A DNA stretch of 44,419 nt from an archaeon (lineage in GTDB: Archaea > Nanobdellota > Nanobdellia > Woesearchaeales > ARS49): contig JAGVQG010000019.1 in the NCBI GenBank assembly GCA_020051845.1, positions 1-44,419 of the forward strand, in the 5' to 3' direction. A program made the translations under genes and the position numbers. Below, piece by piece: positions 23,977 to 26,579 of the stretch (positions are counted from its first letter, which is position 1; the number at the start of each line of letters is the position of its first letter). The notes below the pieces were generated by a model. It ran no database searches. It saw only the letters and a list, made by a program, of their open reading frames with translations, and was not told the DNA's origin.

Positions 23977-24255
23977 ATGCTGAAGCTGAAGAAGATTTCT
24001 GAGGCATACGATATGAAGGTGTTCACGGACATAGGCGACTATTTCGGTGACGTAGAGGAAGCGGTCCTCACGGCCACGAAGGTCCATGGTTGGCGCGTGC
24101 GCGCGACCAAGAACTCGTTCCTGAGCAAGGTCCTAGGATCAGCGAAGGGAGTAGTCGTGCCACATACCCTTGTGAAGAGCATGGGCGATGTCATGATCAT
24201 CTCCAAGGCAGCAGTGCCCAACTACTCCGGCGACGAAGCAGCGGCAGAAGAGTAA
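23977..24255 (+). CDS. Small PRC-barrel domain protein
   Basis: 92 aa. The sequence LKKISEAYDMKVFTDIGDYFGDVEEAV matches the start of PRC-barrel domains, small beta-barrels found in RimM, photosynthetic reaction centres and many short archaeal proteins; some archaeal ones (CdpB) take part in SepF/FtsZ-based cell division. The end is acidic (GDEAAAEE). ATG 23977 is chosen because GGAGGG lies 7 bases upstream and the domain begins there; an in-frame ATG at 23896 inside the palindrome would add 27 unrelated residues. The exact role is unknown; the promoter suggests strong regulation. Confidence 0.85.
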   Translation: MLKLKKISEAYDMKVFTDIGDYFGDVEEAVLTATKVHGWRVRATKNSFLSKVLGSAKGVVVPHTLVKSMGDVMIISKAAVPNYSGDEAAAEE

Positions 24256-24289: not shown

Positions 24290-24360
24290 GCGACTGTAGT
24301 TCAGTGGTAGAATACGAGCTTCCCAAGCTTGGGATGCGGGTTCGATTCCCGCCAGTCGCA
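24290..24360 (+). tRNA. tRNA-Gly (anticodon CCC)
   Basis: 71-nt cloverleaf: acceptor GCGACTG/CAGTCGC with discriminator A24360, D stem GTTC/GAAT, anticodon stem CGAGC/GCTTG with loop TTCCCAA (anticodon CCC at 24322-24324), and T stem GCGGG/CCCGC with loop TTCGATT. It reads GGG codons. No intron and no encoded CCA. The 3' end is one base from the ATG of the next gene. Confidence 0.97.
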
Positions 24361-24361
24361 T

Positions 24362-24715
24362 ATGGACTCAATACTTTACCTATACGTGCCGGTCGCGTGG
24401 CTGGTCGGTCAATTGATCAAGCTTCTCATAGGAGTGTGCAAGTATAGACGTTTCGTACCGACATCTTTCTTCTCGCTCGGCGGCATGCCCAGTTCGCATT
24501 CGGCGCTCGTGTCCGCGCTCGTGACAGCAGTCGGCATCAATGAAGGCATCACAAGCACGGTCTTCGTCGTGACATTTGTGTTCTCATTCATCGTGATATA
24601 CGACGCCTGGGCGCATCATAGGGTGAGAAGGCACACGCTGCCGCAGGTGCTCGCCGGTATTGTGGTCGGCGTCATAACGTTGTTGACCGCGGCTTTGCTG
24701 CATGGGTACTTCTAG
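24362..24715 (+). CDS. Divergent PAP2-family membrane protein (DUF212)
   Basis: 117 aa. Residues around FFSLGGMPSSHSALVSALVTAVG carry the MPSSHSA motif of DUF212/YuiD proteins, distant relatives of PAP2 acid phosphatases. FSFIVIYDAWAHHRVRR fits the family's conserved D-x-x-x-x-R region. About four membrane helices. The product may act on a lipid phosphate, but this family's activity is not established. The ATG begins one base after the tRNA-Gly 3' end and no Shine-Dalgarno sequence can fit except within the tRNA, so translation probably depends on tRNA processing or a leaderless start. Confidence 0.85.
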   Translation: MDSILYLYVPVAWLVGQLIKLLIGVCKYRRFVPTSFFSLGGMPSSHSALVSALVTAVGINEGITSTVFVVTFVFSFIVIYDAWAHHRVRRHTLPQVLAGIVVGVITLLTAALLHGYF

Positions 24716-24728
24716 AATCATCCAACAA

Positions 24729-25163
24729 TCACGTGTATTCATCTACCGTCGTGAAAAGGCTGTCAAGACCTAGTTTGAGCGCCTTCCGTTCTATGATCCT
24801 GTCGTGGACATGAGGCATTATGATCCATTTCTTCTCAAGATCAGAGTAGGGATTAACGAACACCATGGTGAGCTTGGGATTCTGCGTGATCTCGGGCCAT
24901 AGGGTAATCAGGTGGTCGACATTATGGCGTCTGTTGGGTGTGACAACGAGGACGTTCTTGTCCTTCATCCTCTCGAGATTCGGCTGCAGGCCCGCAAGAT
25001 CCGCGATGACCAGCACATAGCGGGGCCCTGTCTTCGTCTCGATGACAAAATCCCAACCATCCTGTTCCTTCTTGATATCTACTATGGTGCGGGTGATCAG
25101 GTCCTTGTTCTGAAGGTAATGCAACGCCCATTCACGAAGCACAGCAAGCAGGTCCTCTTTCAT
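24729..25163 (-). CDS. Conserved-looking protein of unknown function
   Basis: 144 aa from ATG 25163; an in-frame TTG at 25169 is less likely because the TATA-like GCTTTTAATC (25186-25195) is 27 nt from the ATG. The sequence alternates strands and helices: GWDFVIETKTGPRYVLVIADL, KDKNVLVVTPNRRHNVDHLI, LTMVFVNPYSDLEKKWIIMP. This resembles a restriction-endonuclease-like or Rossmann-like alpha/beta fold, but I see no full catalytic motif. The function is unknown. It converges with the DUF212 gene. Confidence 0.75.
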   Translation of the reverse strand: MKEDLLAVLREWALHYLQNKDLITRTIVDIKKEQDGWDFVIETKTGPRYVLVIADLAGLQPNLERMKDKNVLVVTPNRRHNVDHLITLWPEITQNPKLTMVFVNPYSDLEKKWIIMPHVHDRIIERKALKLGLDSLFTTVDEYT

Positions 25164-25224
25164 TGACAAACCGTCGCAGGAACGTGATTAAAAGCTTTAC
25201 GCAGCATATTCTCTATTCTGATAA

Positions 25225-25282: not shown

Positions 25283-26023
25283 GTGGCAACAGAAGATTCA
25301 GTCATAATGAAGAAGATGGTCGATAACATGGCACAGGCCTCCCAGGCAGTGCTTAACAAGAAGCCAGAGATGGACAATTTCAAGAGGATCGTTCCCAGTC
25401 TCGTCGAGAAGGGCCTTGACAACATCAATCTGACTATGTTCAATGAGGAGACACGGCTTGGGATCCTCAACGCCCTTGGCGATGAATACCAGCGCAAGGG
25501 AGCGCTGGACCAGGCTATAAAGGCGTTCATCCTCTCAGGCAACAGGGCCGCTCTATCAGGCATCGGTCATGACTATGAGAAGGTCGCGTTGTTCTCGAAC
25601 GCAATCGACGCCTATCGCCTTGCCGACAACCGCGACGAACTGACCCGAATAGGCGACAAATGCCTCACTGACGGCAGATTGGCAGACGCCATCAAGGCTT
25701 ACAGGCTGCTAAACAACAACGAGAAGCTCATCAAGGTAGGAGACTTCTGCCTCAACAAGGCAAAGTGGGACTTCGCAATCGAAGTGTTCGCGGCCATAAA
25801 GAACAAGGGAAAGCTCGTCGATGTCGGTGACAAGTGCCTGTCTGACAACCAGTTCGCCTATGCATTCAAGGCCTACTCGCTAGCCGAAGACAAGGACAAG
25901 CTCAACCTGCTAGGCGACACCTGCTTGAGGCAGTCGATGCTAAAGATGGCGCTCGATGCCTACGACAAGTCAGGCAACTCGATGATGATACAATTCATCA
26001 AGGAGAACTTCCAGGGTGCGTGA
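25283..26023 (+). CDS. Helical repeat protein with six exact 29-residue units
   Basis: 246 aa. GTG 25283 is chosen because AGGTGA lies 4 bases upstream. After a 61-residue helical N-terminus the protein consists of six contiguous repeats of exactly 29 residues (62-90, 91-119, 120-148, 149-177, 178-206, 207-235), then 11 residues. The consensus is L-x-x-[IV]-G-D-x-C-L-x(8)-A-I-x-A-Y, like a TPR but five residues shorter. Repeats 3-6 all have Cys at position 8. Such repeats form superhelical protein-binding scaffolds. The partners are probably the next two gene products in the operon. Confidence 0.88.
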   Translation: MATEDSVIMKKMVDNMAQASQAVLNKKPEMDNFKRIVPSLVEKGLDNINLTMFNEETRLGILNALGDEYQRKGALDQAIKAFILSGNRAALSGIGHDYEKVALFSNAIDAYRLADNRDELTRIGDKCLTDGRLADAIKAYRLLNNNEKLIKVGDFCLNKAKWDFAIEVFAAIKNKGKLVDVGDKCLSDNQFAYAFKAYSLAEDKDKLNLLGDTCLRQSMLKMALDAYDKSGNSMMIQFIKENFQGA

Positions 26024-26256
26024 TGCCAAACGACAGGTGCATAAAGCACAGAAAGGAAATAATCGGGGTCTGCAACTGGTGCGGCGCCCGTCTTTGCCAG
26101 CTATGCGTGGCTGACAAGAACGGCAACAAGCTCTACTGCGAGAAATGCGTAGGACAGCTATCGATAGTGAAGCGCGTGAAGATACCGCCAGCAGCGTCAG
26201 CACCGGCCAACAGGAAGGATGACGATGCACCGCCTTCTGTCGAACCATACTACTGA
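26023..26256 (+). CDS. B-box-like zinc protein
   Basis: 77 aa from ATG 26023, overlapping the upstream stop by one base; the in-frame GTG at 26020 is an alternative. Eight evenly spaced ligands, Cys6, His9, Cys17, Cys20, Cys25, Cys28, Cys39 and Cys42, give the pattern of a B-box zinc finger (CIKHRKEIIGVCNWCG, CQLC, CEKC), normally a protein-interaction module. The C-terminal 30 residues are Pro/Ala/Asp-rich. No enzymatic domain. Confidence 0.85.
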   Translation: MPNDRCIKHRKEIIGVCNWCGARLCQLCVADKNGNKLYCEKCVGQLSIVKRVKIPPAASAPANRKDDDAPPSVEPYY

Positions 26257-26273
26257 AAAAAGAGGAGGACATC

Positions 26274-26579
26274 ATGGATGGAAGCGCAATGATAGAGGAG
26301 AAATACAAGCTGTTGTTCGAACAACAGATGAAGAAATACGAGAAACAGATCCAGTTGATGAAGGACACCATCCAGGCTATGGCCATGGAATTCCAGACGA
26401 TAAAGTCACAGATGGCCGATGTGCAGACGATGAAGCAGCAGATGCGCGAGCAGCCCGTCATCAAGCAGCAGGAATCGCAGAGGGCGCTGCCCTCAGAGAA
26501 GCCGGTCCACCCTCGTCAGGGCAACTACAAGCCAGAAGACGTCGACATCAAGAAGATGTTCTACTTTGGACACAAATAA
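26274..26579 (+). CDS. Coiled-coil protein of the repeat/B-box operon
   Basis: 101 aa. Residues 5-60 form a long helix rich in Glu, Lys, Gln and Met with heptad spacing; then comes a flexible Gln/Pro stretch and a C-terminal motif KPEDVDIKKMFYFGHK. GGAGG lies 6 bases before the ATG and the gene follows the B-box gene by 17 bases, so it belongs to the same operon. The family is not recognised. Confidence 0.82.
   Translation: MDGSAMIEEKYKLLFEQQMKKYEKQIQLMKDTIQAMAMEFQTIKSQMADVQTMKQQMREQPVIKQQESQRALPSEKPVHPRQGNYKPEDVDIKKMFYFGHK

Follow-up and report, generated by a model that had tools for sequence, protein, structure and literature searches.

We describe a compact operon of a woesearchaeal (DPANN) archaeon that, on balance, is probably an undescribed accessory module of the woesearchaeal FtsZ divisome. 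The conserved core of the module is a pair of proteins, a repeat protein and a coiled-coil protein with a conserved C-terminal tail (the tail protein), and the triad that these form with a small zinc protein is not fixed. Neighboring genes were compared all-against-all across 62 loci, and in 23 of them the gene immediately 5' of the repeat gene, with the same orientation, is ftsZ. This neighborhood suggests FtsZ-based division as the client of the repeat protein. The literature that we searched holds no report of the pair of repeat and tail proteins.

Gene content of the operon

The window, that is, the whole stretch of 44,419 nucleotides that was analyzed, carries the operon at positions 25283-26579 as three genes on the forward strand (Table 1). 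The stop codon of the first gene overlaps the start codon of the second (TGATG), and the second and third genes are separated by 17 nt that include a GAGGAGG motif. None of the three proteins reached the cut-off of a curated family in Pfam or NCBIfam.

Table 1. Coordinates of the operon, its parts and the genes upstream of it in the window
Feature	Position	Strand	Evidence and remarks
Repeat protein, 246 aa	25283..26023	+	Sequence, homologue alignment, AF2 mean pLDDT 89.5
Parts of the repeat protein			N-terminal helix and cap, residues ~30-60; six 29-residue helical-hairpin units, 61-234; conserved C-cap N..MM.QFIKENF
B-box-like two-zinc protein, 77 aa	26023..26256	+	ATG at 26023; alternative start GTG at 26020
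Coiled-coil protein, 101 aa	26274..26579	+	Short form of the tail family; most relatives also have an N-terminal domain of two helices, which is missing here
Conserved C-terminal tail HPRQGNYKPEDVDIKKMFYFGHK	26508..26576	+	139/371 genomes; tandem duplicate in one lineage
PRC-barrel protein, 92 aa, CdpB-like fold	23977..24255	+	Conserved block upstream of the module; synteny only
DUF212/PAP2-like membrane protein	24329..24715	+	Lies downstream of the PRC-barrel gene and ahead of the module, to which it probably does not belong
Divergent gene, 146 aa, no Pfam match	24729..25169	-	Conserved in this block at several loci from the window's lineage

The repeat protein is predicted to be a solenoid of shortened hairpins

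The initial annotation, made from the sequence alone, described the first protein as six uninterrupted units of exactly 29 residues, five shorter than a TPR, with a cysteine at position 8 of four units. All three points were borne out. The units span residues 61-234 without indels and are TPR-like (29 vs 34 residues). The mean BLOSUM62 self-score was +0.91 at an offset of 29 and at most -0.57 at every other offset from 20 to 44, and the score of the repeat core (1.38) was far above the best of 2000 shuffles (-0.10). One cysteine column is occupied in units 3-6 (position 9 in our register). All of the first 18 homologues have Cys127, and at least 90% of them have Cys156 and Cys214. Because this column corresponds to Tyr11 of the TPR, a packing position, its cysteines probably pack and do not bind metal. 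Metal binding is also disfavored because homologues have Ala, among other residues, in this column.

AlphaFold2, run on a 60-row alignment, predicted with confidence a solenoid of helical hairpins (mean pLDDT 89.5), and the predicted model has the antiparallel helix pairs that characterize TPR solenoids. The best reading of this model is that the protein would be a rigid alpha-solenoid of TPR-derived, shortened hairpins, in support of the earlier view of it as non-enzymatic and platform-like. Compared with PDB chains, the repeat profile matched clathrin (E 6e-4), WDR35 (3e-3) and IFT122 (0.02), as well as WDR19, almost without gaps; it also matched TPR designs. The best structural TM-scores of the model were obtained with IFT-A chains (0.37-0.42). 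Elsewhere, a 648-aa open frame (genome G341, contig C5:345404-347759) contains several stretches that match the repeat-protein profile only distantly.

Unrelated zinc proteins occur in different lineages

The second protein had been called B-box-like, and rightly so. It matches zf-B_box with an E-value of 1.6e-4 (22.2 bits; cut-off 24.1 bits), and 11 of 11 homologues keep all eight of its putative zinc ligands (C-x2-H-x7-C-x2-C-x4-C-x2-C-x10-C-x2-C). The gene is restricted to the window's lineage. Other lineages encode an unrelated two-zinc-ribbon protein, whose gene follows that of the tail protein or precedes ftsZ.

A conserved C-terminal tail marks the coiled-coil family

The third protein is a coiled coil, and its unusual C-terminus, already singled out as distinctive in the initial annotation, is the most conserved region of its family. 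In the consensus PRxGxYxPxDVxIxKxFYFGxK, V, K and F are invariant, and R, G, D, I, Y, F, G and K are at least 90% conserved. The tail was found in 139 of the 371 genomes of the phylum sample, nearly always in a single copy, and all of these genomes belong to the window's order. In genomes lacking the repeat protein, it terminates proteins of ~150-230 aa that consist of a two-helix N-terminal domain (motif MDVEKIQKINxLAxELxxHGxA..EAxxQAE), a coiled coil, a variable linker and the tail. This N-terminal domain is absent from the window's tail protein and was not found elsewhere in the window's genome.

Other variants of the family were observed. One protein (L142:1317-2018) carries two tandem copies of the C-terminal tail, an arrangement that fits a putative modular linear motif. 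In an ftsZ-linked clade, the tail proteins of four loci (L026, L028, L029 and L043) show a second conserved stretch, KKEVxIVDCRP...RxxxFxSGAxxN, before the tail. The long members of the family (up to 393 aa) show only a low-complexity extension, and inspection by eye revealed in them no fusion to a known domain that would name a partner of the tail.

The repeat and tail genes form the core of the module

We assessed the distribution of the genes in the 371 genomes of the phylum sample and in 57 near relatives; nearly all named loci are from woesearchaeal MAGs. Order and class labels denote ranks of kinship relative to the window's genome, and the distribution tables for the repeat and tail genes hold the matching genomes plus a few others. 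The repeat protein occurs in 27 of the 57 near relatives and in 86 of the 371 phylum genomes. The window's family and order contain 50 genomes with the full-length protein, defined by an E-value below 1e-50. In 39 of these 50 the repeat and tail genes are no more than ~1.3 kb apart, a count that, like the other adjacency counts, rests on incomplete MAGs; the tail gene is located elsewhere in six and was not found in five. Conversely, 94 of the 139 tail genomes have no full-length repeat protein, and 27 genomes from other orders of the class have the repeat protein without the tail.

An obligate three-gene module was rejected, as the partners occur apart from one another. The coupling of the three genes proposed in the initial annotation thus stands for the repeat and tail genes (39/50) and fails for a fixed triad, the B-box-like gene being confined to one lineage. 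Homologues of the repeat protein without the other two genes, which were to count against the proposal, break up the triad and leave the two-gene core intact. Given the 94 genomes that have a tail and no full-length repeat protein, the repeat protein cannot be the only partner of the tail protein, and the distribution argues that it is not the main partner of the tail.

In a supported clade of eight loci from another order of the class (L067, L069-L072 and L074-L076), a gene for a TctA-family membrane protein of 400 aa comes after the repeat gene, and in seven of the eight a short two-piece paralogue separates the two. No division gene was seen beside the repeat gene in these loci. A viral origin was rejected, as the viral contigs hold no relative of the repeat protein.

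ftsZ and a PRC-barrel gene neighbor the module

Six loci (L051, L052, L053, L054, L064 and L066) have 8-13 nt between ftsZ and the repeat gene, with 8 nt in L053 and L054. A further seven have gaps of 39-82 nt, and the rest of those measured have 173-674 nt. The linked loci fall into two separately supported clades of the repeat protein, of which they make up 14 of 14 and 7 of 12 members. The ftsZ neighbors that were tested match Tubulin, FtsZ_C and TIGR00065 far above cut-off. Several of the linked FtsZ proteins end in LGID; the GID motif binds SepF in archaea (PMC8178401), and SepF is present in the window's genome. At one locus (L028:3908-4970), the linked ftsZ appears split into two overlapping frames, by a sequencing error or because the gene is broken.

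The conserved linkage to ftsZ was found outside the window itself. In the window no ftsZ is adjacent to the module, and the four ftsZ genes of its genome are on other contigs (C49, C68 with two, and C27; loci L133-L136). Most archaeal genomes have one or two FtsZ homologues, FtsZ1 and FtsZ2 (PMC8178401). Two of the four proteins are 76% identical to each other, and two are 75-77% identical to the linked FtsZ type. The solved FtsZ 'homolog 1' (1w58/1fsz) scored 315 bits against the linked FtsZ and 430 bits against another FtsZ of the window's genome, no more than a hint as to which paralogue is linked. The client was unknown in the initial annotation; it is now less so, as the arrangement of genes in relatives points toward division by FtsZ.

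In the window's lineage, the module belongs to a conserved block that also includes, upstream, a PRC-barrel gene. Its profile matches the PRC-barrel chains 8qzo and 8onw (E 7e-14), which we take to be archaeal CdpB structures, and 14 of the 15 members of its family match PF05239, as expected for a PRC-barrel fold. The PRC-barrel proteins CdpB1 and CdpB2 of Haloferax are division proteins that stabilize the divisome (PMC12186497). In genome G007 the tail gene is just downstream of the PRC-barrel gene, and no repeat gene was found there. The block has several other genes in synteny as well (TraB-like, S2P-like and helicase), which makes it a weaker argument than the ftsZ operons. In the window, the DUF212 gene and the divergent gene intervene between the PRC-barrel gene and the module.

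Proposed role and alternatives

As a division module, the operon could work as follows. The 246-aa protein would serve as a rigid alpha-solenoid scaffold of shortened TPR-type hairpins that gathers or spaces FtsZ filaments or their anchors (SepF, the PRC-barrel protein). The coiled-coil protein would be an oligomeric adaptor, and its tail a short linear motif that docks on a partner present throughout the order, so that the tail protein would tie the assembly of solenoid and FtsZ to that partner. We interpret the tail as a docking motif because it is nearly always single-copy, is order-wide, and has been tandem-duplicated once, as linear motifs can be. The small zinc protein would be an exchangeable accessory. 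We also propose, tentatively, a stronger version in which the tail is the universal docking motif of a new division adaptor and the solenoid is a coat- or IFT-like organizer of the FtsZ ring. If this were true, the solenoid would be a kind of divisome protein that is not known in bacteria or archaea.

The two proteins might instead be an adaptor for another cytosolic complex (a vesicle-like coat, secretion, or RNA or protein quality control), the linkage to ftsZ being only a co-expression arrangement of some lineages. We regard this as a credible but doubtful account. It draws on the 39 of 62 loci that have no ftsZ beside the repeat gene, on neighbors that vary by lineage (RNase J-like, serine protease, TctA and ribosomal genes), and on the resemblance of the repeats to coat and IFT solenoids. 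However, the tight same-strand linkage to ftsZ is kept in two deep, separately supported clades of the repeat protein, and a second, unrelated division-type gene, that of the PRC-barrel protein, is syntenic in the window's lineage.

Two further alternatives concern the tail. They are compatible with a role in division, and the likelihoods that we assign to the alternatives can overlap. First, the tail may bind the groove of the repeat protein from the same operon, in a self-contained two-protein complex comparable to TPR/EEVD. Adjacency of the two genes in 39 of 50 genomes is what such a complex would lead one to expect, yet the tail remains conserved where the repeat protein is absent (94 genomes), and 27 genomes of other orders have the repeat protein and no tail. 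Nor was the tail confidently docked on the solenoid (pLDDT ~40-57 over the tail region) in a model of the fused proteins of L058, a natural same-frame pair of neighbors whose two intergenic stops were read as Gly. We consider groove binding unlikely.

Second, the aromatic and basic C-terminus (FFYFGxK) may be an amphipathic segment for membrane targeting that makes the coiled-coil protein a multivalent membrane anchor. Divisomes typically contain oligomeric proteins with short terminal membrane anchors, such as SepF, MinD and FtsA, and a tail protein of this kind would be in keeping with them. But the strict identity of the tail is unusual for such a segment, as membrane-targeting helices conserve amphipathicity and not identity, and we judge an anchor to be distinctly improbable.

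A PIP box or similar clamp motif, by which the coiled-coil protein would be tethered to DNA replication through PCNA, is very improbable: the C-terminal location and the spacing of DVxIxK[MFY]F recall QxxIxxFF, but the Gln of Q-x-x-[ILM]-x-x-[FY]-[FY] is replaced by Asp or Glu in all aligned tails, the tail conserves an upstream PRxG and a downstream Y-F-G unlike PIP boxes, and the organism itself follows the usual PIP rules, as the FEN1 of the window's genome has a canonical QQGLGSFF at its end.

Comparison with known systems

The repeat protein shares with the TPR the hairpin signature G..Y/C....G.....A...F/Y and a match to TPR_1 (E 2.4e-6). This match falls just below the Pfam gathering cut-off (27.5 vs 27.8 bits), however, and those to other TPR models are lower. 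The units have 29 residues in place of 34, and alignment to the TPR requires a five-residue gap in each of them. Clathrin, COPI and IFT-A are likewise built of helical hairpins of ~29-30 residues. In contrast to these, the repeat protein has only six repeats and no WD40 or beta-propeller part, no membrane-coat partners were seen for it, and its TM-scores (at most 0.42) are too low for a common superhelix. The relation is a likeness of repeat type and does not imply membership.

The zinc protein has the ligand order of the B-box zinc finger (PF00643), C-x2-H-x7-C-x2-C-x4-C-x2-C. It differs in its terminal ligands, which in 11 of 11 homologues are Cys-x2-Cys and not His, in the ten-residue spacing before them, and in having no RING or TRIM context.

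A further comparison is with the archaeal FtsZ divisome (FtsZ1/FtsZ2, SepF and CdpB1/CdpB2). The repeat and tail proteins themselves showed no similarity to any of these components; the likeness lies in the gene neighborhood of the module, with ftsZ and with a PRC-barrel gene. This bears on the division of small DPANN archaea, which often have several FtsZ genes and few known ring proteins, and for which an ftsZ-linked predicted solenoid and an order-wide tail motif provide new division candidates with a testable list of partners.
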